A DNA stretch of 64,000 bases from an uncultured Hyphomicrobiaceae bacterium (lineage in GTDB: Bacteria > Pseudomonadota > Alphaproteobacteria > Rhizobiales > CAMYJA01). Below the pieces are notes generated by a model. It worked only from the letters and a program-made list of their open reading frames with translations. It was not told the DNA's origin and searched no databases. Position numbers and translations under genes: made by a program. The DNA lies in contig CAMYJA010000002.1 of assembly GCA_947258705.1 (NCBI GenBank), positions 246,478-310,477 of the forward strand, in the 5' to 3' direction. Position 1 is the stretch's first letter. Each line of letters starts with the position of its first letter. Below, piece by piece: positions 20,463-38,808 of this stretch.

Positions 20463-23069
20463 ATGGCGGCTGAACGCTATAACGCACCCGAACGCGAAGC
20501 GCATTGGCAGAAGATCTGGGATGAGCGCGAGGTTTTCCGCGCTGACGGCGCGGACAGCCGGCCGAAATATTATGTCCTCGAAATGTTCCCCTATCCGTCG
20601 GGGCGCATCCATATGGGGCATGTGCGCAATTATGCCATGGGCGACGTGGTTGCGCGCTACAAGCGGGCCAAGGGATTTAACGTTCTGCACCCGATGGGCT
20701 GGGACGCCTTCGGCATGCCGGCCGAAAATGCCGCCCTCAAGAACAAGATCCATCCCGGCGACTGGACCTATGACAATATCGCCGTCATGCGCGATCAGCT
20801 CAAATCCATGGGCCTGTCGCTCGACTGGTCGCGCGAGTTCGCCACTTGCGATCCCGAATATTACGCCCAGCAGCAGAAACTCTTTCTCGACTTTCTCAAT
20901 GAGGGGCTTGTCTACCGCAAGAAAAGCAAGGTCAACTGGGATCCTGTCGACCACACGGTGCTCGCCAATGAACAGGTGATCGATGGCCGGGGCTGGCGGT
21001 CTGGCGCGCTCGTCGAGCATCGAGAGCTGACCCAATGGTTCATGAAAATCACCGCCTTTGCCGATGATCTTCTCGACAGCCTGGAGGGGCTCGAACGCTG
21101 GCCTGAAAAAGTGCGGACCATGCAGGCCAACTGGATCGGCCGCAGCCACGGGCTCATGATGAATTTCGATCTTGGCGGCCGCAAGCTGCCGAAGAAGTTT
21201 TCAACGCTCGATGTATTCACCACCCGCCCGGACACCATATTCGGGGCGAGCTTTCTCGGCCTGTCTCCGGATCATCCTTTGGCGGCTCATCTCGCGAAGA
21301 ATTCCAAAAAGCTCGCTGCCTTCATTGAAGACTGCCAGAAGACGGGAACGACGGAAGAGGAAGTCGAGACAGCGGATAAGAAGGGATTCGATACCGGCCT
21401 GACGGCGCGGCACCCGTTTGCGGAGGGTGTGGAGCTGCCGGTCTATGTGGCCAATTTCATACTCATGGGTTACGGCACCGGCGCCATATTCGGCTGTCCG
21501 GCCCATGATCAGCGCGATCTCGACTTCGCCCGCAAATACAAGCTCAAAGTGACGCCGGTCGTGCTGCCCGAGGGCGAGGACGCTATGAGCTATGAAATCG
21601 GCGACGAGGCCTATACGGGGCCGGGGCGGCTTGCCAATTCCGCTTTTCTCGACGGCATGAGCATCGAGAACGCGAAGAACGAAATCGCAACCCGGATGGA
21701 AAATGCCGGTCGTGGCAAACGCCAGGTGAACTATCGCCTGCGCGACTGGGGCGTGTCGCGGCAACGCTATTGGGGCTGTCCGATCCCGGTCATACATTGC
21801 GAGAAATGCGATGTGGTGCCGGTGCCCGTCGAAGACCTTCCGGTCAGGCTTCCCGACGATGTTTCTTTTGACCAGCCCGGCAATCCGCTCGACCGGCACC
21901 CGAGCTGGAAAGATGTCGCCTGCCCGAAATGCGGCGGCGCGGCGCGGCGCGAGACGGACACCTGCGACACCTTTGTCGACTCGTCCTGGTATTACGCGCG
22001 GTTCTGCTCGCCGCATGCAACTGAGCCGGTCGATCCCGAGGCCGCCCGGTACTGGCTGCCGGTCGATCAATATATCGGCGGCATCGAGCACGCCATTCTG
22101 CACCTTCTCTATTCGCGCTTTTTTACCCGCGCCATGCAGGCCACCGGCCATATCGACCTCAAGGAGCCGTTCGCCGGTCTTTTCACCCAGGGCATGGTCA
22201 ATCATGAAACCTACAAGGGTGCGGACGGTGCCTGGCTCAGCCCGAATGAGGTGCGTATCGAGGGCGAAGGCGCCCAACGGCGCGCCACGCATGTGGACAG
22301 CGGCGCGGCGGTTGAAATCGGCCATGTCGAGAAAATGTCGAAATCAAAGTTCAACACCGTCGATCCATCGGATATTCTCGGCCATTACGGCGCCGATACC
22401 GCGCGCTGGTTCATGCTCTCCGACAGCCCGCCCGAACGGGACGTGCAGTGGACGGAAAGCGGCATTGAAGGAGCATGGCGGTTCCAGCAGCGGATTTGGC
22501 GGCTGATCCACGATATTCTCGAAAAAACGGGCGGGCGCGGCGCATTGGGCCAAAAAGAGCCCGAAAACATGGGTAAAGTGGCTCTGGACATTCACCGGGC
22601 CGCCCAAAAGGCGCTGCATCAGGTGTCTGAAAACATTGAAAATTTGCGTTTCAACCGCGCCGTTGCGCATATATACGAGTTCACCAATATGCTCGGATCA
22701 GTGATAAGCGAAACCGATGACGGGCTTGATTGGGCGCTCAGGGAAGGCGCCGAGTTTCTCGTTCAAATGCTCGGTCCGATGATGCCGCACCTGGCGGAAG
22801 AGTGCTGGGAGAGGCTTGGATACAACACTTTACTGGCAGAACAGCCCTGGCCGGCGGTAAATAAGGCTTTGCTCGTTGACGAAACAATCAAGATTGCCGT
22901 ACAGGTTAATGGTAAAAGACGTGACGAGCTTGAAATTGCCAGAGATGCAGCCAAAGAAGATATTGAGGCTGCGGCGTTGAAACTCGATAATGTCGTACGG
23001 GCACTGGAAGGGCGCACAATCAAGAAAGTGATTGTCGTGCCGCAGAGGATCGTCAATGTTGTTGCGTAA
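20463..23069 (+). CDS. leuS: Leucyl-tRNA synthetase
   Basis: LeuS charges tRNA-Leu. The 868-aa protein has the class I HIGH motif as HMGHVRNY (within [21 protein letters not shown]), the CP1 editing domain with [10 protein letters not shown], zinc-knuckle-like CxxC pairs (HCEKC, CPKCGG), and [12 protein letters not shown] as KMSKS. A C-terminal [14 protein letters not shown] domain closes the protein. It leads a leuS-lptE-holA operon and overlaps lptE by 14 bp. Confidence 0.98.
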
Positions 23070-25578: not shown

Positions 25579-26460
25579 CTACCCGCCCGTCAGGCGCTTC
25601 TTGAGATAATCGAGCTGGTCGAAATTGCCGTATTTGATCATGAGATAACCGCTTTCGCCGGAGCCCGGTTTGATTTCCGCCTGCAGGCCGAGGGCGTCGG
25701 TCACCTCGCGCTCGAAAGCGCGGGTGTCGGCATCCTTTTTCGGGCCTTTGCGTTTCGCCGTGGATACGTTTTTGGTATCGCGGGCCTGCACCATCGCCTC
25801 GACATCGCGCACGCTCAGGCCTTTTTCGACAATATTCCGGGCTATGGCTTCGGCGTCGGCGCGGCCGATGAGGGGCCGCGCGTGCCCCGCGCTCAAGCGG
25901 CCTTCACGGATAAAGACCTGCACGGGTTCGGGCAGTTTCAAAAGGCGCAATGTGTTGGCCAAATGGCTGCGGCTCTTGCCGATGGTCTGAGCCAGATCCT
26001 CCTGGGTGTACTCATAACGGTCGACCAGTTCCTGATAGCCGAGCGCCTCTTCGAGCGGGTTGAGGTCGGCGCGCTGGACGTTTTCGATAATCGCCAGCTC
26101 CAGAACTTCGCGGTCGTCGAGATCCCGGACAATGACCGGAATGCGCAGGACGCCCGCTTTCTGGGCCGCGCGCCAGCGGCGTTCGCCCGCGACGATTTCA
26201 TAATCGGACGGCAGGCCCTTGACGGGCCGCACGATAAGCGGCTGGACCAGCCCTTTTTCATGAATGGAATTGGCCAGCTCTTCGAGATCGTCCTCGCGAA
26301 ATGTCTGGCGCGGATTGAGCGCGCTCGGCCGCACCTGCTCGACCGCGACCACGCGCTGCTCTCCTTCAAGGGGGAGTTTTTGCGTCGTGTTGGCCGGTTC
26401 GCCGATCAATGATGCAAGGCCGCGTCCGAGCCTCGCGTTTTTCTGTGCTGCTGATGCCAT
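25579..26460 (-). CDS. parB: Chromosome partitioning protein ParB
   Basis: ParB is a CTP-dependent DNA clamp that loads at parS and spreads. The 293-aa protein has the N-terminal RGLASL segment, the CTPase/ParB-N box with VAGERRWRAAQKAG, the helix-turn-helix YTQEDLAQTIGKSRSHLANTLRLLKLP, SAGHARPLIG, and the C-terminal dimer domain. Three parS sites lie 1.7 to 5.7 kb away. It is downstream of parA in the same direction. Confidence 0.97.
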   Translation of the reverse strand: MASAAQKNARLGRGLASLIGEPANTTQKLPLEGEQRVVAVEQVRPSALNPRQTFREDDLEELANSIHEKGLVQPLIVRPVKGLPSDYEIVAGERRWRAAQKAGVLRIPVIVRDLDDREVLELAIIENVQRADLNPLEEALGYQELVDRYEYTQEDLAQTIGKSRSHLANTLRLLKLPEPVQVFIREGRLSAGHARPLIGRADAEAIARNIVEKGLSVRDVEAMVQARDTKNVSTAKRKGPKKDADTRAFEREVTDALGLQAEIKPGSGESGYLMIKYGNFDQLDYLKKRLTGG

Positions 26461-26565: not shown

Positions 26566-27393
26566 CTATGCCGCGCGCAACTCGCGTTCGCGGTCGATGA
26601 CCTCGGACGCCAGCTTGATATAGGCCTTCGATCCCGGACACTCGAGATCGTAAAGCAGGATCGGCTTGCCATGAGACGGCGCCTCCGCCACGCGGATATT
26701 ACGCGGGATGGATGTCTCGTAGACCTTCGGCCCGAAGAAGTTCTTCACCTCATCGGCGACCTCATTTGAAAAATTGGTGCGGCTGTCATGCATGGTCAGC
26801 ACGACGCCGTGGATTTCGAGCGCCGGGTTCAGGGTCGAGCGCACGCCCTCGATGGTGGCGCGCAATTGGGAAATGCCTTCAAGCGCGTAAAATTCGCACT
26901 GCACCGGGACCAGAACCGAATTGGCCGCGACCATGGCGTTAACAGTCAGTGTGCTGAGGGATGGCGGGCAGTCGATCAATATGTAGGTAAAGGGCGGGAT
27001 GTCCGGATGATTGCGCTGTCCTGCGATCAAAGCCATAACGGCATCGCGCATTCGGAAATTGCGGTTCTGCGCCGACAGGATCTCCGCCTCGAGACCGACG
27101 AGATCGGAATTCGCGGGGACAATGAAAAGATTGGCGACGGCCGTCGGCAGGGCCGCCTGGGCGAGGCTGGCGCGGCTCGTCAATATGTCATAGGTGGTGA
27201 TGGTCCGCTCCTGGTCGCTGATGCCAACACCGGTGCTGGCATTGCCCTGCGGATCCATGTCGATAATGAGCACGCGCTCGCCGATGGCCGCCAGCGCGGT
27301 GCCGAGATTGATGGTTGTCGTCGTCTTGCCAACGCCGCCTTTTTGATTGGCGATTGCCAGAACGCGGATATCGTCTTCGATCTGCGAGGTCAT
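26566..27393 (-). CDS. parA: Chromosome partitioning ATPase ParA
   Basis: The 275-aa deviant-Walker ATPase has IANQKGGVGKTTTTINLGTALA, LIIDMDPQGNASTGVG and ILIDCPPSLSTLTVNAM. It drives ParB-parS complexes apart during chromosome segregation. It lies between rsmG and parB in the canonical rsmG-parA-parB order. Confidence 0.98.
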   Translation of the reverse strand: MTSQIEDDIRVLAIANQKGGVGKTTTTINLGTALAAIGERVLIIDMDPQGNASTGVGISDQERTITTYDILTSRASLAQAALPTAVANLFIVPANSDLVGLEAEILSAQNRNFRMRDAVMALIAGQRNHPDIPPFTYILIDCPPSLSTLTVNAMVAANSVLVPVQCEFYALEGISQLRATIEGVRSTLNPALEIHGVVLTMHDSRTNFSNEVADEVKNFFGPKVYETSIPRNIRVAEAPSHGKPILLYDLECPGSKAYIKLASEVIDRERELRAA

Positions 27394-27526
27394 TGCCTTC
27401 GCTCCCTCTTGTGGAACCGTGAATGCGGCCCCGTTAATACAACCCCCCGTATATGTACTCCCGTTAATACGGCTCCGTCACAGACGCCGGACGAGACGGG
27501 TATCAAATCCCGGTATTCAAATTCCA

Positions 27527-27564
27527 GAATCTAAATACGAGAATCTAAATTCCAGAATCTAAAT
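27527..27564. repeat. Three GAATCTAAAT direct repeats at the rsmG stop
   Basis: GAATCTAAAT starts at 27527, 27541 and 27555, exactly 14 bp apart; the middle copy contains the rsmG stop codon and the third encodes part of its C-terminus. Related GAATTC/TTCAAATCC runs lie just upstream (27500-27526). Confidence 0.75.
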
Positions 27565-28237
27565 TCCAGATTTCGACGATCCGTCCCTCGGCGTCCGTTC
27601 TGCTCGGATGCAGCCGGGAGCTGAATTGCCAGTGCTCGGCTGCCGCCGCCAATTCGCTCTTCGCTTCGCGCCCCTTGAGAAAGAGCGCTCTTGTATTATT
27701 CGCGAAAAACGGGACGGCATAGTCCAGAAGCCTGTCCAGGGGACTGAGCGCACGCGCCGTAACAACGTCTACCTTACCGACTGTAGGCTTCTCGCCGAGA
27801 GTTTCAATTCGCGCCTCGATGATTTCCACAGAGGTCCCGGTTTCGCGTGCTACCTGGCGGAGGAAAGCGCATTTTTTACCATTACTTTCAACAAGTTGGA
27901 TGGATCTCTCATTTTCACCCTCAAGCATGATTGCGATCACCATTCCCGGAAATCCGGCGCCCGAGCCGAGATCGAGCCAGTTTCGCGAATCAGTTGCATA
28001 GGCAAGAACTTGCGCGGAATCGGCGAAATGGCGCTGCCAGATATGACCGATTGTGGAGGGCGAGACGAGATTGATGGCGCGCTGCCAGGCACGCAGGCGA
28101 TCGGCATAGATCTCCAGCCGGTCGCATGTTTCACGTGAAACCCCGAAGGCACGCGCAAAATCCTCCGGCCCGTGCACGCTGACAAGATCCTGTCCGCCAT
28201 TGCCGTCGGGGCCCGGGGCTTGCGTCTCTGCCGTCAT
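27545..28237 (-). CDS. rsmG: 16S rRNA (guanine527-N7)-methyltransferase
   Basis: RsmG/GidB has SAM-binding [17 protein letters not shown], then [17 protein letters not shown] and [16 protein letters not shown]. The 230-aa length is slightly over the family norm, with an N-terminal extension (APGPDGNGG). Its ATG overlaps the mnmG stop by 4 bp. A parS site sits inside its coding sequence (28127-28142). Confidence 0.95.
28127..28142. promoter_or_regulatory. parS site 1 (inside rsmG)
   Basis: TGTTTCACGTGAAACC matches the universal 16-bp parS palindrome with one end mismatch. It encodes MFHVK-like residues on the rsmG strand (SRETC region). Confidence 0.93.
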
Positions 28238-30144
28238 GCGGAGCGGGCCCGGTCCGGCCTGTTTCCGGCCTTTTTTATGTAAAGCAGGATCAGCATCAGC
28301 GCGGCCGGCGTGATGCCGTCGATACGCGATGCCTGGCCCAGGGTGGACGGCCGGTGATTTTCCAGTTTCTGGCAGACTTCGTTCGAAAGGCCGGAAATGG
28401 CGCGATAATCGAATCCTTGCGGAATCGCGATGTTTTCGTCGCGTCTGAACGCCCTGATGTCCGCATCCTGGCGTTCGAGATAGACCGAATAGCGGGCATC
28501 CGTTTCAATCTGCCTTTGGTGTCCGGCATCGATACCGCTCAACTCCGGCCAGAGCTCTAATATCGAAGCGAAACTTATTTCGGGGTAAGACAGGAGCTCA
28601 AAGGCCGAGCGGCGGCGGCCGTCAAGATTGATCTTGATGCCTGATTTGCGCGCCTCGCTGGGGGTGATGGTGCGGGCCTCCAGCATTTCGGTGGCTGCCT
28701 CGATGGCGAACCGCTTGTCCTCAAAGCGGCGCGCACGGCCGGCCCCGATGCAGCCCAGCTTCAGGCCCAGGGGTGTCAGGCGCTGATCGGCATTGTCCGC
28801 GCGCAGGCGCAGGCGGTATTCGGCGCGGGACGTGAACATGCGGTAGGGCTCGGTAACGCCGCGAGTGACGAGATCGTCGATCATCACGCCGAGATAGCCA
28901 TCGATGCGGCTGACGGTAAATCCCGCGTCATTGCCCGACGCATGGAGCGCTGCGTTAATACCGGCGATCAGGCCTTGCGCGCCCGCTTCCTCATAACCCG
29001 TCGTGCCGTTGATCTGACCAGCCAGGAAAAGCGCGGCGACCTTCTTCAGCTCCAGCGTCGGTGTCAATTCGCGCGGATCGACATAATCATATTCAATGGC
29101 ATAGCCATGGCGGATGATGCGCGCCTGTTCCAGACCCGGAATGGTTTTCAGGAACGCCTCCTGGACCTCCTCGGAGAGCGAGGTGGATATGCCGTTGGGA
29201 TAGATCGTCCGGTCGTCAAGACCTTCGGGCTCGAGGAATATCTGATGCGAGGGCCGGTCCTCGAATCGCACAACCTTGTCCTCGATGGACGGGCAATAGC
29301 GCGGGCCCGTGCTTTCGATCTGGCCCGAATAAATCGGCGCCTCATGTAGATTGTCCCTGATCAGCGCATGTGTGTCCGGGGTCGTGTGGGTAATATGACA
29401 GTTCACCTGCGGCACCTTGATCGCTTCCGTCATGAAGGAAAAGGGCTGTGGCGGCGTGTCACCGGCCTGGGCCTGCAAACCGTCCCATTTGACGGTCGTT
29501 CCGTCGAGACGCGGCGGCGTACCGGTTTTCAGGCGGCCCATATTGAGGCCGAGCCCGTACAGGCGTCTGGAAAGACCGATGGAGGGCGCCTCGCCAACGC
29601 GTCCCGCCGGGATCTTCCTGGGGCCCAGGTGGATGAGGCCATTCAGGAACGTGCCCGTGGTGATGACCACGGCGCCGGCCCGGTAGGTCATTCCGTCCTT
29701 CGTCACGACGCCGGCGACGCGGTTATCCGCAACGCACAGGTCTTCCGCCTCGGCCTCGATGATTTCGAGGTTCTCCATATCGGCTATTGCCCGCTGCATG
29801 GCCGTGCGGTAAAGGCTGCGGTCGATCTGCGCGCGCGGTCCCTGGACGGCCGGTCCCTTGGACCTGTTCAGCAGGCGAAACTGGATCCCCGCCTCATCCG
29901 CCATGCGGCCCATCAGGCCATCGAGAGCGTCGATCTCGCGCACCAGATGCCCCTTGCCCAGGCCGCCAATGGCCGGATTGCAGGACATTTCGCCGATGGT
30001 CGCGAAACGATGGGTGATGAGGGCCGTTCTGGCGCCCATGCGCGCCGCCGCCGCCGCCGCCTCGGCACCAGCGTGGCCGCCACCGATGACGATCACGTCA
30101 TAGACGCTAGCGTCATGGCTGTCGTTTTCTCGATCTGAGGTCAT
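28234..30144 (-). CDS. mnmG: tRNA uridine-5-carboxymethylaminomethyl modification enzyme MnmG
   Basis: MnmG (GidA) works with MnmE to modify U34 of certain tRNAs. The 636-aa protein has the FAD motif [53 protein letters not shown], the [16 protein letters not shown] segment and the C-terminal helical domain. A poly-Ala stretch follows the FAD motif. The two partner genes are separated by an AGGAATC/parS region. Confidence 0.98.
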
Positions 30145-30242
30145 GGAGATTATCTTATGTTTCGTGAAGCGGGACAGTAGCTGATCCGGGAGACCGGGTC
30201 AAAAGCCTTTCTTGCCGGCGCGTCACGGAGCAGATCATGCCA

Positions 30243-30342
30243 AATTCCCAATTGGAAGATTCAGGAATCCCTTAATTCGTTTTAGGAATCCCCCTCCACT
30301 CTTTAGGAATCATCCTCCCTCAACCTCCCTCATATAGGAATC
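30243..30342. repeat. AGGAATC array A (between mnmG and mnmE)
   Basis: The heptamer AGGAATC starts at 30263, 30284, 30305 and 30336, so spacings are 21, 21 and 31 bp, close to 2, 2 and 3 helical turns, all on the same strand. The first 29 bp (30243-30271) are identical to 31943-31971 in array B. A parS follows at 30372. No gene is present in 30145-30401. Confidence 0.9.
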
Positions 30343-30371
30343 CCAGGCATTCCCATCAATCAGGATCTGCG

Positions 30372-30387
30372 TGTTTCACGTGAAACA
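30372..30387. promoter_or_regulatory. parS site 2 (between mnmG and mnmE)
   Basis: A perfect 16-bp TGTTTCACGTGAAACA palindrome, 15 bp from the mnmE stop codon and 30 bp from the last AGGAATC of array A. Confidence 0.97.
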
Positions 30388-30401
30388 TCGAATCTTTTGA
30401 A

Positions 30402-31793
30402 TCACTTACCAATGCAGAAGCTTGCGAAGAGATCGTCCAGCACGTCCTCGACATCGATACGGCCGGTGATGCGGCCGATGGCGTGTGCCGCCCGGCGCAG
30501 ATCTTCGGCGCGCAGCTCCAATTCGCGTCCGGGGCTCTCGAGAAACAGGTCTATGGACCGCGCACATTCGTTTAAATGATCGCGGTGGCGGGCCCTGGTA
30601 ATGACGGGGGCCTCCTCTTGAGCCATGCCGCTTTCCGCCGAGCCGGTGATCAGGGATATCAGCGCATCCATACCCTCGCCGGTTTTGGCAGACACGTATA
30701 ATGCGGGTGTTTCGGGTAATTCGGGTAATTCTGGCCCATCCGCCGATGTGGCCTGCCCGGCTTTGCCCACTAGGTCCGATTTATTGGCGATGGTGACGAT
30801 GTTTCGGCCCGCAAGTTCCTGCGGCCCGTTTTCGGCCCCGCCGGAGGTCCCCGCCTCCGTTACCCAGATAATCAAATCGGCGTCTTTGGCGTGTTTCAGG
30901 CTGCGGGACATGCCTTCGCGTTCTATGTCCGACACGCCCTCCGATGCCCTGATGCCGGCCGTATCCGTGATCAGCACCGGCCAGCCCTGGAGGTCGAGAA
31001 AAACCTGGATGGCATCCCGGGTCGTTCCCGCCTCAGAGGATGTGATGGCCGCATCGCGGCGGGCCAGGCTGTTGAGCAGGCTGGATTTGCCGACATTGGG
31101 CGGTCCCGCCAGGACGACGCGGTAGCCGTCGCGGATGATTTCACCGCTTCTTTGCGCCTCAATATGGTGCTCGATTTCCGATTTCAGGGTTTTCAGGATG
31201 GCCGTGGCCTGGCCGATGGCCGCCACGCTGACATCTTCCTCGTCGGAAAAATCGATTTCGGCCTCGATCAGCGCCTGGGCCCTGATTAATTCGTGACGCC
31301 AGCCCTCATAGATCGCGGAAAGGCCGCCACCCATCTGCCGCAGGGCCTGTTTGCGCTGCGCTTCGGTTTCGGCATTAATCAGATCGGCAAGGCCTTCCGT
31401 TTCAGTTAGATCGAGCTTGCCGCTTTGAAAGGCGCGCCGGGTGAACTCTCCGGGATCTGCCGCGCGTAGATGCGGTTCGTCCTCAAGCATGTCGATGAGG
31501 CCCGAAATGACGGCCCGGCCGCCATGGGCATGTAGTTCGGCGACATCTTCCCCCGTGAAGCTGCCGGGCCCTGGAAACCACAGCAACAAACCGCGGTCAA
31601 TGACCTCGTCCGTCGCAGGATTGCGAAAGGCCTTTAGGCCTGCCTTGCGCGGTTGCGGCAATGATCCGCATATGCGCGAGATCACCTCGCGCGCATGGGG
31701 GCCCGAAATACGGATCACGGCCACGCCGGATTTGCCGCGGCCCGATGACAGGGCAAATATTGTATCGTTGCCGGAATTGATGGTTTTGCTCAT
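30402..31793 (-). CDS. mnmE: tRNA modification GTPase MnmE
   Basis: MnmE (TrmE) partners MnmG. The preferred ATG at 31793 gives 463 aa starting near TIFALSSGRGKSGVAVIRISG, the normal N-terminus. An in-frame upstream ATG at 31895 would add 34 unrelated residues. The protein has the helical domain, the G domain with GPPNVGKSSLLNSL, DTAGIR and NKSDL, and the C-terminal FCIGK signature with its invariant cysteine. Confidence 0.97.
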   Translation of the reverse strand: MSKTINSGNDTIFALSSGRGKSGVAVIRISGPHAREVISRICGSLPQPRKAGLKAFRNPATDEVIDRGLLLWFPGPGSFTGEDVAELHAHGGRAVISGLIDMLEDEPHLRAADPGEFTRRAFQSGKLDLTETEGLADLINAETEAQRKQALRQMGGGLSAIYEGWRHELIRAQALIEAEIDFSDEEDVSVAAIGQATAILKTLKSEIEHHIEAQRSGEIIRDGYRVVLAGPPNVGKSSLLNSLARRDAAITSSEAGTTRDAIQVFLDLQGWPVLITDTAGIRASEGVSDIEREGMSRSLKHAKDADLIIWVTEAGTSGGAENGPQELAGRNIVTIANKSDLVGKAGQATSADGPELPELPETPALYVSAKTGEGMDALISLITGSAESGMAQEEAPVITRARHRDHLNECARSIDLFLESPGRELELRAEDLRRAAHAIGRITGRIDVEDVLDDLFASFCIGK

Positions 31794-31810
31794 TCTTCGG
31801 GTATTGTTTT

Positions 31811-31840
31811 CGGTCCGGGGGTGTGTGGCCCGGTCCGGGG
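31811..31840. repeat. Duplicated CGGTCCGGGG motif before mnmE
   Basis: CGGTCCGGGG occurs at 31811-31820 and 31831-31840, exactly 20 bp apart, in the leader of mnmE. Confidence 0.7.
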
Positions 31841-31942
31841 GATTTGTGTTCGGGCTCCGGCCCTCATTGGCGGGCACTTTGCCGTGATAGCTCATTGACC
31901 TGGGGATTGGAAGCCTCGGATTATTATGCGCAAAACGCCCGG

Positions 31943-32074
31943 AATTCCCAATTGGAAGATTCAGGAATCCCGAAACGCGTTTTAGGAATCATCCTCCGCA
32001 TTGTAGGAATCCCAATTGCCGATTCAGGAATCCCGCCTCCCCGGTCCTCCCCAAAACAGGAATCCTCAGGAATC
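31943..32074. repeat. AGGAATC array B (between mnmE and the YyaL-like gene)
   Basis: AGGAATC starts at 31963, 31984, 32005, 32026, 32058 and 32068, giving spacings 21, 21, 21, 32 and 10 bp, all close to whole helical turns and all in one orientation. The first 29 bp copy array A, and a parS follows 18 bp after the last motif. No gene lies in 31896-32216. Confidence 0.9.
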
Positions 32075-32092
32075 CCGATTTACGCAAGGGAT

Positions 32093-32108
32093 TGTTTCAC
32101 GTGAAACG
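32093..32108. promoter_or_regulatory. parS site 3
   Basis: TGTTTCACGTGAAACG, one mismatch at the last base of the parS palindrome. It lies about 110 bp before the YyaL-like gene. Confidence 0.93.
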
Positions 32109-32216
32109 TCATGGTTTTTGAATCGGTTAGTGAGTGCGGCTCCCGTCTTGCGGTGGCCGCCCATAAGCTTTAGGTCTTGGTCCACGATCATTCATCCTTT
32201 CAATTTGCGAGGTCTT

Positions 32217-34253
32217 ATGAGCCACAACCGGCTTGGAGAAACCACCAGCCCGTACCTGCTGCAGCATGAAGACAATCCCGTCCATTGGTGGCCTTGGTGC
32301 TCGGAGGCCCTGGAGGCCGCGAAAGCCGAGGACAAGCCGATCCTCCTGTCGGTCGGCTATGCGGCCTGTCACTGGTGCCATGTGATGGCGCATGAAAGCT
32401 TTGAAGATGAGGCAACGGCCGAAGTGATGAACGAGCTCTTCGTCAACATCAAGGTCGACCGTGAAGAGCGTCCGGATATCGACGTGATCTATATGGCCGC
32501 CGTGCACCAGTTTGGCGAGCCCGGAGGCTGGCCATTGACGATGTTTCTGACGCCCGATGGCCGGCCGTTCTGGGGCGGCACTTATTTTCCCAAGGAAAGC
32601 AAGTTCGGCAAGCCGGCATTTACGCACGTTCTCAAGCAGATTTCGCATATCTACAAGGAGGAGCACGACAAGGTGCTCGAAAACGCCAAAGCGATCACGG
32701 CGCATCTGCAGAAAGGCGACGACGGTAGTTCAAGCGCCGGTCTTTCGCCCGGATTTCTGAAACAGGTCGCGGATAAGCTCCAGGGCGCTTTCGATCCCGT
32801 CCATGGCGGCATTCAGGGCGCGCCCAAATTTCCTCAATACACCATTTTCTGGCTGTTATGGCGGGCGGGCATTCAGCTCGATCTTGCCGATTGCCGCAAG
32901 GCCATCGAGAATACGCTCAGCCATATTTGCCAGGGCGGGATCTATGATCATCTCGGCGGCGGGTTTGCCCGCTATTCGGTCGATGAGCGCTGGCTGGCAC
33001 CGCATTTCGAAAAGATGCTCTACGACAATGCGCTTCTTCTCGAACTCCTGACGGAAGTCTGGCGCGAAACGCCGCTTCCCCTCTATGAAGCGCGGGTGCG
33101 GGAAACGATCGCATGGCTCAAACGCGAAATGATCGTGGAAGGCGGCGGATTTGCCGCTTCGCTGGATGCGGATTCGGAAGGCGAGGAAGGCCGCTTCTAT
33201 GTCTGGTCGGAGGCGGAGATCGACGAAGCTCTGGATCCGGAGGACAGCACTTTTTTCAAGTCGGTTTACGATGTCAGCGGCGGCGGCAACTGGGAGGGGA
33301 AAAATATCCTCAACCGCCTCAAGGATTTCACGGCGCACAGCGTTGATGACGAGGAAAGATTGCAGGCGCTCAGATCGAAGCTTCTGGACCTGCGCGACGG
33401 CCGGGTCCGGCCCGGTTGGGACGACAAGGTTCTTGCCGACTGGAACGGCTTGATGATCGCGGCGCTGGTCCGGGCGGCGGACGTGTTTGACGAGCCCGGC
33501 TGGCGCGACCTCGCCCAATCTGCTTATGATTTCGTCAAGGCCTCGATGACGCGCGACGGCCGCCTGATACATTCCTACAGGGCCGGACGGGCCCAGGCTC
33601 CTGCGACGGCCGCGGATTACGCCAATATGATCTGGGCCGCGCTCAGGCTTCACCAGTCGAAGGGGGACCGGGTTTATCTCGATGACGCGCTTGGCTGGCT
33701 GTCGGTCCTCGACGCGCATTACTGGGACGCGGCGCGTGGCGGATATTACTTCACCGCCGACGATACGACAGATCTGATCGTGCGGACGAAATCGGCCAAT
33801 GACGACGCCCTGCCTAATGCCAACGGCACCATGATCTCGAATCTGGTGGCCCTGTCGATGCTTGCGGGCGACGTGGAACTGATGGATCGCGCCCGCGTCA
33901 TTCTCGACGGTTTCGCCAATGATCTGAAAGAAAACCTCTTTTCCCATGGCGGCCTGCTGGCGGCGAGTTTCGATCTCTTTTCACCGCAGCAGATCGTCGT
34001 CCTTCAGGAAAACGGATCGGCCGAGATCGGCGGGCTGGCCCATCAGATGCGCCGCCTTTCCCTGCCGGGCGCCGTTCAGAGCATCATTGTTGATACAACT
34101 CAAATAGCCGGTGGTTCGCCCGCGTCAGGCAAAACCATGCAGGACGGCAAGCCAACGGCCTATATCTGCATTAGCGGGACGTGCTCGGCACCCGTAACGG
34201 GTAGTGACGAGCTTGTCGAAAGTTTGAGTGAACAGCGGTTGATCGGTGCGTAG
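32217..34253 (+). CDS. Thioredoxin-domain protein of the YyaL/SSP411 (DUF255) family
   Basis: ATG 32217 gives 678 aa and the family start [25 protein letters not shown]. The thioredoxin-like N-terminal domain has [20 protein letters not shown] and [10 protein letters not shown]. The rest is an (alpha/alpha)6-barrel like that of glycosyl hydrolases/epimerases, with [32 protein letters not shown]. The function is unknown across bacteria. An in-frame extension to 32016 runs through the AGGAATC array and parS and is rejected. Confidence 0.92.
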
Positions 34254-34275
34254 AGAATGCAGCTTCAAGAACGCA

Positions 34276-34402
34276 ACCTCATGGTGAGGAGGCGCAACGC
34301 GCCGTCTCGACCCATTGGCGGCAAAGAAACCGATTGGAGCTTCTCAGCCCATCCTTCGAGACGACATGGGCCAGTCTTGGCCCATGTCCCTCAGGATGAG
34401 GT
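34276..34402. repeat. Dispersed intergenic repeat, copy 1
   Basis: The element begins CCTCATGGTGAGGAGGCG, has internal CGTCTCGA and CCATCCTTCGAGACG, and ends CCCTCAGGATGAGG, so its two halves are inverted relatives. The same framework recurs at 53170-53310. It lies between the YyaL-like gene and rho in 34254-34500, which holds no gene. Confidence 0.7.
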
Positions 34403-34500
34403 GGTGTTCGGTAAGAAGGAAAATACAGCGAGCCACAATGCCTGCCCTAAAACCGGGCGTAGGTTTCACCTACGCCCCGAATGTTCATGCAGGATTCGCT

Positions 34501-35766
34501 TTATGTATTCATACTGTCGAAGAACTCGTCATTGTTCTTGGTCTGCTTGAGCTTGTCGAGCAGGAATTCAACACCGTCCATCGTGCCCATGGGATTGAGA
34601 ATGCGCCTGAGCACATACATCTTCTTGAGCTGATCCTCGGGCACGAGCAGCTCTTCCTTGCGGGTGCCGGATTTGGCGATGTCGATGGCGGGGAATATGC
34701 GTTTATCGGCGACCTTGCGGTCAAGTATGATTTCCGAGTTGCCCGTTCCCTTGAATTCCTCGAAAATAACCTCGTCCATGCGGCTGCCGGTATCGATCAG
34801 CGCCGTTGCGATGATGGTGAGGGAGCCGCCCTCTTCGATGTTGCGCGCGGCGCCAAAGAAGCGTTTTGGCCGTTGCAGCGCGTTTGAATCGACCCCGCCC
34901 GTGAGCACCTTGCCGGAGCTCGGCACCACCGTGTTATAGGCACGGCCCAGCCGCGTGATCGAATCGAGCAGGATGACGACATCGCGCTTGTGCTCGACCA
35001 GGCGTTTGGCTTTTTCAATGACCATTTCCGAAACCTGCACATGCCGTGTCGGCGGCTCGTCGAAAGTCGAGGAGACCACCTCGCCCTTGACCGAGCGCTG
35101 CATGTCCGTCACCTCCTCGGGCCGTTCGTCGATCAGCAGAACGATGACAAAGCATTCCGGGTGGTTGGCCGTGATCGAATGGGCGATATTTTGCAGGATC
35201 ACGGTTTTACCGGTCCTTGGCGGCGCCACGATCAGACCGCGCTGACCCTTGCCGAGCGGCGCCACAATATCGATGACACGGCCGGATTTATCCTTCAACG
35301 TGGGGTCGTCGATTTCCATCTCCATCCATTCATCGGGATAGAGCGGCGTCAGATTGTCGAAATGGACCTTGTGGCGGGCCTTGTCGGGTTCGTCGAAATT
35401 GATCGTGTTGACCTTGAGGAGGGCAAAATAACGCTCCCCCTCCTTGGGGCTTCTGATTTCTCCTTCCACGGTGTCGCCCGTGCGCAGGCCGAAGCGCCTG
35501 ATCTGGCTCGGGGATACGTAGATATCGTCGGGTCCCGGCAGATAGTTCGCTTCGGGCGAGCGCAAAAAGCCAAAACCGTCCGGCAACACCTCGACGACGC
35601 CGATGCCCGTGATTTCAACCTCGCGGGCCGCCAGCTGCTTGAGGATGGCGAACATCAACTCCTGCTTGCGCATGGTGCTGGCATTTTCAACCTCCACCTC
35701 CTCGGCGAAAGTGAGCAATTCGGTGGGACTCTTGATCTTGAGCTCTTCGAGCTTCATTTGTTGCAT
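34501..35766 (-). CDS. rho: Transcription termination factor Rho
   Basis: Rho is the hexameric RNA-dependent ATPase for factor-dependent termination. The 421-aa protein has the N-terminal helical domain, the cold-shock-like RNA site [29 protein letters not shown], the P-loop [29 protein letters not shown], and the Q/R-loop [13 protein letters not shown]. It lies downstream of hemE-hemJ with a 283-bp structured leader. Confidence 0.98.
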
Positions 35767-36049
35767 TGGGAGAACTCCGCGTGGGCTGTTGCAGCCGATA
35801 GGTAGAAGCAGGAGATGATAACCTGCGAATGGTGGGGTATTTTTGCCTGGAAAAGGCGAAATCCGAAGATCGGCCGGACCCGGGAACTCGACCGGACTTG
35901 GTTGGGACTTAAGTCCGGTTCAATCCCGGACTCGTCCGGACTGGTCCGGAATTATCCGGGTCTTGGCGATTTACAAGTCTATATATCAAAGTCGGGCCTG
36001 AAACGGAAGACGATAGTTGACCTAATTTGCGGCCCTTGAGGATTTTATG
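35767..36049. other. rho leader region with phased TCCGGA motifs
   Basis: No gene is present. On the plus strand CCGGA-type motifs lie at 35874, 35892, 35926, 35936 and 35946 with CCGGG at 35956; the last four are exactly 10 bp apart. A 9-bp hairpin (ACCGGACTT 35891-35899 with AAGTCCGGT 35911-35919) and the palindrome GGACTTAAGTCC (35905-35916) overlap it. It would form the 5' leader of rho, which is known to autoregulate in other bacteria. Confidence 0.7.
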
Positions 36050-36472
36050 TCACGAAAACGGTTTGACGACGACCAGGATGACGATAAACGCCATCAGAAC
36101 TGTCGGAACTTCATTGGCGAGGCGGTAGAATTTCTCGCTTTTTTGATTGTTGTCAGAAGCGAAATCGCGCGCCCAGCGCACCGTCAGATGGTAATAATAG
36201 GTCATCAGGACCACAAGCGCGAATTTCAGCAGAAACCATGGTTCAAACCAGATGTCCTGCATATAGGCGAGTATGAGACCGAGCGCCCAGGTGACGACGC
36301 TGGCCGGTGCCATGATTATCCTCAAGAGCCGCTTTTCCATGATCTTGAAGGTTTCCGATTGTCTGGAACCGGGTTCGGCCTGGCAGTGATAGACGAAAAG
36401 CCGTGGGAGATAAAAAAGTCCTGCCATCCAGGCGATTACGGCCATGATGTGCAACGCCTTCAACCAGAGCAT
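36050..36472 (-). CDS. hemJ: Protoporphyrinogen IX oxidase HemJ
   Basis: The 140-aa membrane protein has four helices, starting LKALHIMAVIAWMAGLFYLPRLFVYH with the conserved His, then RRL-type KRLLRIIMAPA and the WFLLKFALVVLMTYYYH segment. HemJ oxidises protoporphyrinogen in haem synthesis where HemG and HemY are absent. Its place 21 bp after hemE supports the pathway. Confidence 0.93.
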   Translation of the reverse strand: MLWLKALHIMAVIAWMAGLFYLPRLFVYHCQAEPGSRQSETFKIMEKRLLRIIMAPASVVTWALGLILAYMQDIWFEPWFLLKFALVVLMTYYYHLTVRWARDFASDNNQKSEKFYRLANEVPTVLMAFIVILVVVKPFS

Positions 36473-36493
36473 GGGCCTTCTCCTCGCCGCGTC

Positions 36494-37540
36494 CTAACCG
36501 GCAGCGCGAATTCTGTCGACCAGGCGCGCGACATGTTCGGGCGGCGTTTGCGGAACAATGCCATGTCCGAGATTGAATATGAACGGCTTGCCGGACATGG
36601 TTTCGAGAATCTCATCCACCCTGCGGTCGAGCGCCTCGCCGCCGGTTACCAAGAGCAGCGGATCGAGATTTCCCTGCACCGTGCCAAGCGGGCTGAGATG
36701 ATCGCGCATATAGGACAATGGCAGGGATGTATCGCATGAGATGCCGTCGACATTCGTCGCTTTCAAATAAGTTTCGTAGCCCGGTCCGGATCCGCGTGGA
36801 AAACCGATGATGGGCAGGTTGGGGTGCTGCGACTTGATCTCTCGAACGATTCTACGGGTCGGGTCAATGGACCATTTCAAAAACTCGTCATCGGACAGGT
36901 TGCCGGCCCAGCTGTCGAAGATCTGGAGAAGGTTGACGCCGGCTTTAACCTGGCCCAGCAGATAATCGACGGACGTCGTCACGAGCAGATCGATGAGTTG
37001 TTTGAAGGCTTGCGGGTTTTGATAGGCGAACAGGCGTGTGACCGCCTGATCCACGGAACCGCGGCCGCCGACCATGTAGGTGGCGACGGTCCAGGGGGCG
37101 CCGCAAAAGCCGATCAGGGCTGTTTCTTCGGGCAGCGCCGAGCGAATGCTCGAGACGGCTTCGTAGACATGGCGGAATTTTTCTTCCACCTTGTCGGGCG
37201 TCAGCGCCTTGATGTCGTCAAGAGATTTCAACGGATCCAGACGCGGACCTTCGCCCTCGACGAATTCGAGGTGCTGGCCGAGCGCGTGGGGGACGACGAG
37301 AATGTCCGAAAACAGAATGGCGGCGTCGAAGCCGAAACGGCGGATCGGCTGCAGGGTGACTTCGGTCGCGAATTCCGGCGAATAGCAAAGGTCGAGAAAG
37401 GATCCCGCCTTGGCTCTGAGTTCACGGTATTCGGGCAGATAGCGGCCTGCCTGACGCATCAGCCAGACGGGGGGTATTGGGGTTGGCTGATGATTGAAGG
37501 GATTTAAAATTGAAAAGCCGGTTGGCTGAGGTTCGGACAT
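36494..37540 (-). CDS. hemE: Uroporphyrinogen decarboxylase
   Basis: HemE converts uroporphyrinogen III to coproporphyrinogen III. The 348-aa protein has PPVWLMRQAGRYLPEYRELR with the active-site Arg residues, AILFSDILVVPHALG, GFCGAPWTVATYMVGGRGS, and FNLGHGIVPQTPPEHVA near the end. It borders the candidate oriC, as in Caulobacter and Rickettsia. Confidence 0.97.
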   Translation of the reverse strand: MSEPQPTGFSILNPFNHQPTPIPPVWLMRQAGRYLPEYRELRAKAGSFLDLCYSPEFATEVTLQPIRRFGFDAAILFSDILVVPHALGQHLEFVEGEGPRLDPLKSLDDIKALTPDKVEEKFRHVYEAVSSIRSALPEETALIGFCGAPWTVATYMVGGRGSVDQAVTRLFAYQNPQAFKQLIDLLVTTSVDYLLGQVKAGVNLLQIFDSWAGNLSDDEFLKWSIDPTRRIVREIKSQHPNLPIIGFPRGSGPGYETYLKATNVDGISCDTSLPLSYMRDHLSPLGTVQGNLDPLLLVTGGEALDRRVDEILETMSGKPFIFNLGHGIVPQTPPEHVARLVDRIRAAG

Positions 37541-37968
37541 GAAACGCTACGATGAGCCTCGTCTAAAAAAATCTAATAAATAGAATCTTATTGATTGTTG
37601 TTGTTATTGTTGTGCGTTGGATTACGGAGATTATTCGTTTTCCACCTTTCGTCAACATCTTGTTGTTGCAGGCGAAAAATAAACGTTTAAATTTCAGCTC
37701 ATTGTGGACTTTTTGCCCGGTGATGACTTGTTTAGCGCCCTTTCATGTCATAAGCACGGAATATGCGTGGTTGATAGGTTGTACTCGAACCTGGTGATAA
37801 GTGCTGGATCAGCGTGGAGGGGATGTGCATCGATGGCGCGCCTGGAAATGTTTAAAATCTGACCTCTTCGGGTGAACGTGTGGATTAAACCGATGCCTTT
37901 TGTGCACGGGGCGGTGGAGAAGAATTCAAGCCGCCGATCATTTCTTTTAATGCGGGAGTAATCCACAA
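37541..37968. other. Candidate chromosome replication origin (oriC)
   Basis: This 428-bp non-coding gap lies between hemE and ppsR, the position of oriC in Caulobacter. Two copies of the DnaA-box variant TGTGGATTA occur (37879-37887 plus strand, 37959-37967 minus strand). A weaker TGTGGACTT lies at 37703-37711 and TGATCCAGC (minus) at 37803-37811. An AT-rich run (about 37565-37610) next to hemE could be the unwinding element. TTAA-N7-GTAA (37947-37961), one base off the CtrA consensus, abuts the last DnaA box. The call rests mainly on conserved gene order. Confidence 0.75.
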
Positions 37969-38808
37969 GTGACTAAGGACTTACCGAGCTATTTTCACCT
38001 GCACCTCGTGTCCGATTCAACAGGCGAAACACTAGGAACCATTGCCAAGGCCGCCGCGGTTCAATATCCCGGCGTGCGCGCGATCGAGCATTCCTATCCT
38101 CTCGTAAGAAACCTGCGCAGAATGCAGCGGGTCATCCAGGAAATCGAAGCCGCCCCGGGGATCGTGCTTTACACGCTGGTGAACGAGGACCTCAAGACCC
38201 ATCTCGAGAAGAAGTGCGCCAAGCTGAAAATACCATGCGTTCATGTTCTCGAACACATACTACAAGTGTTCGATTCATTCCTTGGCGCAATAAAAGCGCC
38301 CACGGTAGGTGGACAGCATCTCCTCGACAAGGCTTACTTCGAACGGATTGAAGCGCTGAATTTCGTCATGGCCCATGATGATGGCTGCCTGCCGGAAAAT
38401 CTCGATGAGGCGGATATCATCATTCTCGGCATCAGCCGGACGTCGAAAACGCCGACGAGCATTTATCTCGCCAACCGGGGATACAAGACCTCCAACATGC
38501 CGATCGTTCCCGGCGTTCCCCTGCCGGCGGAATTCGAAAAGCCGACAACCGCCTTTATTGTCGGACTGGTGGCCAGTGCGGACAGGATATCGACCATTCG
38601 CCGCAACCGGGTCTTGACCATGGCGGACCGGGATCTTGACAATTATGTCGATCGCGAACTGATTTCCGAGGAAATCCACTATTCACGCAAGATCTATTCC
38701 GATCTCGGTTGTCCGGTTATCGACGTGACCCGCCGTTCCATTGAAGAGACGGCGGCGTCCATATTGAGGCTCTATCAGGACGCCAGGCCGGACGTTAAGA
38801 GCGATTAG
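37969..38808 (+). CDS. ppsR: Pyruvate,phosphate dikinase / PEP synthase regulatory protein (DUF299)
   Basis: This bifunctional kinase/phosphotransferase family controls PPDK or PEP synthase by threonine phosphorylation. The 279-aa protein has FHLHLVSDSTGETLGTIAKA, the P-loop-like ILGISRTSKTPTSIYLANRG, and PIVPGVPLPAEF. It starts at the right edge of the candidate oriC and leads the ppsR-maf-aroE-coaE-dnaQ run. Which dikinase it controls is not shown in this window. Confidence 0.95.
   Translation: MTKDLPSYFHLHLVSDSTGETLGTIAKAAAVQYPGVRAIEHSYPLVRNLRRMQRVIQEIEAAPGIVLYTLVNEDLKTHLEKKCAKLKIPCVHVLEHILQVFDSFLGAIKAPTVGGQHLLDKAYFERIEALNFVMAHDDGCLPENLDEADIIILGISRTSKTPTSIYLANRGYKTSNMPIVPGVPLPAEFEKPTTAFIVGLVASADRISTIRRNRVLTMADRDLDNYVDRELISEEIHYSRKIYSDLGCPVIDVTRRSIEETAASILRLYQDARPDVKSD

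Follow-up and report, generated by a model that had tools for sequence, protein, structure and literature searches.

Direct repeats in one orientation, about two helical turns apart, are the iterons of plasmid origins. Clusters of GATC, the site of the methylase Dam, are bound by SeqA at oriC of E. coli and elsewhere, and SeqA in vitro requires GATC pairs that are 2-3 helical turns apart (PMC5145175). For GANTC, the site of the cell-cycle methylase CcrM, about 80% of Caulobacter cells were reported to carry origin-proximal sites in the hemimethylated state, which lasts for a large part of the cycle (PMC3973325); GcrA binds methylated GANTC (PMC3667746), and an extended GcrA motif, YGAKTCK/G, was derived from Caulobacter (PMC7987155). 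Several GANTC sites near partition genes or parS are found in GANTC-rich repABC and 3parS regions of alphaproteobacterial replicons, which, in the accessible parts of these sources, belong to secondary replicons or plasmids and hold few sites with no phasing described (PMC11514494, PMC9040568).

The locus described here lies in a window of 64,000 nucleotides (the whole stretch of DNA that was analysed) and comprises two regular arrays of GANTC sites at a chromosomal parAB-parS region. As in the GATC clusters of SeqA, sites of a cell-cycle methylase (CcrM, assigned by homology) are clustered at 2-3 turns; however, the sites are GANTC/CcrM rather than GATC/Dam and lie beside parS rather than at oriC, and no match to SeqA (PF03925) was found in this genome, whereas the same search was positive in the E. 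coli control. GcrA/CcrM-controlled promoters share with the arrays the GANTC sites upstream of genes and a genome in which CcrM and GcrA are both encoded, but the arrays have many phased sites, none of which carries the extended motif of Caulobacter. Plasmid-origin iterons are alike in being same-orientation direct repeats about two turns apart; the arrays, in contrast, are chromosomal and lie between housekeeping genes, and no initiator gene or plasmid origin was seen. Searches of the open-access literature turned up neither a report on phased GANTC arrays at chromosomal parS nor one on the GANTC-bearing parS sequence.

The locus and its two arrays

The order in the window is parB, parA, gidB, gidA, array A, parS, mnmE, array B and parS, with all genes on the minus strand and assigned by Pfam (Table 1). 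As in a ParABS centromere, 16-bp parS palindromes lie near parA and parB (at 28128, 30372 and 32093); these are the only three parS in a 330-kb stretch of the same contig, and two of the three adjoin arrays. Both arrays are situated upstream of minus-strand genes, array A of gidA-gidB-parA-parB and array B of mnmE, for which the true start is probably near position 31793, since the alignment with most relatives begins only at about residue 42. Promoter-like sites of the kind predicted for mnmE occur at a mean of 1.0 in shuffles of the same region. An Rfam search of positions 27000-38500 gave no match. The probable origin, as judged from gene order, is the gap between hemE and a kinase-PPPase gene, about 6-7 kb from the arrays; in Caulobacter the origin lies in this gap (here 37541-37968). 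It holds a single GANTC, and no exact DnaA box was found in it.

Table 1. Positions of genes, parS sites and GANTC arrays in the window
Feature	Position	Strand	Remarks
parB	25579..26460	-	Pfam ParB_N, HTH_ParB, ParB_C
parA	26566..27393	-	Pfam AAA_31, CbiA
third parS core	28128..28141	.	inside gidB, without array
gidA (mnmG)	28234..30144	-	Pfam GIDA 4.3e-172; first gene downstream of array A, then gidB, parA, parB
array A	30243..30342	-	GGATTCC(T)/AGGAATC, four units; additional GATTC at 30258; lies between mnmE and gidA
parS TGTTTCACGTGAAACA	30372..30387	.	perfect palindrome; adjoins array A
two GANTC sites	30390..30403	.	stretch from parS to mnmE; second overlaps mnmE stop codon
mnmE	30402..31895	-	Pfam TrmE_N, MnmE_helical; between arrays A and B
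promoter-like TTGGGA-17-CATAAT for mnmE	31923..31951	-	at the border of array B; matched by consensus alone
array B	31943..32074	-	GGATTCC(T)/AGGAATC, six units; additional GATTC at 31958 and 32021; lies upstream of mnmE
parS core GTTTCACGTGAAAC	32094..32107	.	beside array B; parS at 32093
GANTC	32120..32124	.	just past the parS of module B

The AGGAATC units of array A are at 30263, 30284, 30305 and 30336 (gaps of 21, 21 and 31 bp), and those of array B at 31963, 31984, 32005, 32026, 32058 and 32068 (gaps of 21, 21, 21, 32 and 10 bp), all on the plus strand. A recount in the window reproduced the positions, spacings and single orientation reported in the earlier note, and likewise the 29 bp shared at the start of both arrays, each of which contains AATTCCCAATTGGAAGATTCAGGAATCCC, and the parS beyond each; the array-parS layout is alike in both, and the inter-unit spacers differ. 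The units contain GAATC, hence a GANTC site of CcrM, a point that the earlier note had missed, and they conserve more than GANTC, with GG before, C after and a single orientation. The further GANTC sites at 30258, 30390, 30399, 31958, 32021 and 32120 also belong to the modules.

The total of AGGAATC in the window is unremarkable (13, with 11.6 expected), and it is the clustering that is unusual. The pattern AGGAATCN{10,18}AGGAATC has five matches in the 2.77-Mb genome, all within arrays A and B, and the reversed-pattern control has none; similar clusters away from parS, which would have refuted the reading in the earlier note, were therefore absent, the pairs being confined to the two arrays. 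In the 330-kb stretch of the contig that was sampled as background for clustering, GANTC has a mean density of 1.6 per kb, and at least four GANTC within 120 bp occur in arrays A and B only. The spacings were claimed to be near multiples of 10.5 bp, and the phase R at this period is 0.99 in each array; against random placement within the same span, p is about 0.004-0.006 for array A and about 0.00005-0.0001 for array B. The two values are not independent of each other, because the arrays look like duplicates; like the p values for relatives below, they are nominal, uncorrected for the several phase tests, periods and groupings that were looked at together.

The genome encodes a CcrM homologue (382 aa, with a RAMA domain; its neighbour looks mutY-like by sequence) and GcrA. 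Another GANTC triple near parAB is found at the gidB/parA junction (three copies of AGAATCTAAAT at 14-bp spacing, 27527-27559), and on contig C14 of the same genome a unit of another kind, GATTC, recurs at 19-bp spacing (22708-22807, within locus L192).

Arrays, GANTC and parS variants in relatives

Families f10, f19 and f39 likewise have a parS-linked array at mnmE-gidA, as does, less clearly, f33. In f10 (L030) and f39 (L057), GATTCC units follow parS in the layout of the window, although mnmE of these families is only 46-51% identical to that of the window; f19 (L046) has two units, too few for the phase test. Family f33 (L036, L095, L097) has GACTCCCTCCC units 21 bp apart followed by irregular gaps, and within it L107 has C-rich units (CTCCCTCCCC) 21 bp apart without GANTC. 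The expectation that relatives would keep the phasing was borne out in f10 (R at 10.5 bp 0.88, p 0.0014), suggestively so in f39 (0.93, p 0.06), but not in f33, for which R over the whole array is 0.41 (p 0.39) despite the 21-bp repeat. The window, f10, f19 and f39 share two GANTC positions on the mnmE side of parS; GA and TC are fixed at both sites in these four families, and N varies.

A search for triple GATTCC arrays in 398 genomes of the order gave matches in 58; with the gene context of the other matches checked in part, placement at the mnmE locus was recognised by coordinates for only three of these (G000, the genome of the window, G009 and G038), each of which has such arrays at this locus alone. 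An MnmE search of the genome contigs returned three distant Stahlbacteria loci only, which were unusable for comparison.

For the order as a whole, 139 loci were sampled, in 127 of which gidA adjoins mnmE. The mnmE-gidA gap contains 9.5 GANTC per kb and mnmE 2.3 per kb, i.e. the gap is about four-fold denser, and seven control pentamers of the same make-up show no comparable rise in the gap. With parS and near-parS sequences masked, 135 GANTC remain, with 80 expected from first-order simulation and 106 in the highest of 20 simulations. By family, 30 of 45 are above the control mean for GANTC and 13 below (p 0.014); 15 of the 45 are without any GANTC in the gap. The enrichment extends to many families that are without the GGATTCC unit.

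Among the single-substitution parS variants at the mnmE-gidA loci of the order, 80 of 109 have the change that creates GANTC. This order-wide bias is no more than suggestive of selection for methylation. In a comparison of 399 Pseudomonadota, the corresponding position (T3A) was substituted by A, C and G in 51, 5 and 2 cases, respectively, in the same order, by A in none and C in 4 in other orders of the class, and by A, C and G in 7, 6 and 1 cases in other classes. Most other sampled orders of the class have CcrM according to the literature. Since the GANTC-creating variant is absent from these other orders and occurs seven times outside the class, ParB tolerance could also explain it, and the T3A comparison does not separate selection for GANTC from ParB tolerance. 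Several GANTC-bearing parS copies, 34-51 bp apart, are present in the mnmE-gidA gap of L087, L108, L115, L134, L135 and L139.

Candidate readers of the arrays

For the function of the arrays, we tentatively favour a parS-linked, helically phased array of CcrM sites that would be read cooperatively after replication, functionally similar to SeqA on GATC. This reading starts from what the sequences show: the sites, their phasing and link to parS, a position that is conserved across other families, and genes for CcrM and GcrA. At the chromosomal centromere, each array and its parS would then make up a replication-timing module: from published CcrM biology, the clustered GANTC sites are expected to be methylated late in the cycle, and the region, near the probable origin, to be replicated early and to be hemimethylated for most of the cycle; a methylation-sensitive protein may bind these sites cooperatively along a single helical face, at the 2- and 3-turn spacing that SeqA prefers, and may thereby make the state of parS, the transcription of gidA-gidB-parA-parB and mnmE, or both, dependent on replication. 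The GG and C flanks and the one orientation of the units exceed what CcrM needs, and so count against this reading, as do the failure to find SeqA or the GcrA motif, the non-significant phase in f33, the GANTC-free units of L107, the distribution of the GANTC-creating parS variant, and the 15 families with no GANTC in the gap. We know of no SeqA-like reader in alphaproteobacteria.

The main rival is an operator array for a dedicated protein that binds GGATTCC(T) cooperatively on one face, with the GANTC overlap incidental; such a protein would control gidA-parAB and mnmE, or build a parS-linked complex. It accounts about equally well for the conserved flanks, together with the single orientation, and agrees with the location of both arrays in upstream regions, a promoter-like site being present at the border of one of them, with the absence of the GcrA motif from the array sites, and with the C-rich units of L107 that persist without GANTC. 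We nevertheless regard it as doubtful: at the parS-proximal GANTC sites N varies while GA and TC are constant, and GANTC is enriched in many families that have no GGATTCC unit.

Recruitment of GcrA to methylated GANTC in the arrays, as a means of timing the transcription of gidA-parAB and mnmE, would fit the GcrA gene of the genome and the upstream position of the arrays, but is improbable, as YGAKTCK is found at none of the 15 array GANTC sites, against 25 of 109 window-wide, by a motif that is that of Caulobacter and may differ here. With these 0 of 15 matches GcrA was downgraded as direct reader, and by motif a reader of the Caulobacter GcrA type is unlikely. There is similarly little likelihood of a functionless duplicated repeat with the spacing as a trace of tandem duplication; the 29 bp and the array-parS layout common to A and B would agree with it, but the inter-unit spacers differ, and f10 and, suggestively, f39 have similar phased sites in the corresponding position despite the low mnmE identity. 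Binding of DnaA to the parS region with assistance by the array, after the action of DnaA at parS in Caulobacter (review PMC6399470), is very improbable, because the excess of DnaA-box-like sites in mnmE-gidA gaps (12, with 2.5 expected, one mismatch allowed) is set against unenriched TCCCCA boxes (12, with 9.1 expected), an array unit that is unlike a DnaA box, and no exact TTATCCACA in the window. Examples of relatives with such DnaA-box-like sites in the gap are L086, L156 and L166.

Methylation and the centromere

The interpretation given in the earlier note is partly supported overall. Its proposal of an unrecognised origin/centromere element stands as anatomy for a centromere-linked element, with parS-side arrays also in f10 and f39, but lacked the CcrM/GANTC identity of the sites; its other proposal, a duplicated promoter-like array, fits the duplication and the position upstream of promoters.

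A more far-reaching form of the cooperatively read, parS-linked CcrM-site array, which we consider rather unlikely, is a centromere with an epigenetic clock, in which phased CcrM sites by parS would be served by a hemimethylation-sensing reader in the role of SeqA, and in which, in the many relatives with GANTC inside parS, methylation would tune the loading of ParB. Because a CcrM site recurrently arises in parS by one substitution, the question of whether methylation alters ParB binding can be put directly. If the arrays are read via their methylation state, replication timing would be linked to centromere function or par expression in alphaproteobacteria.
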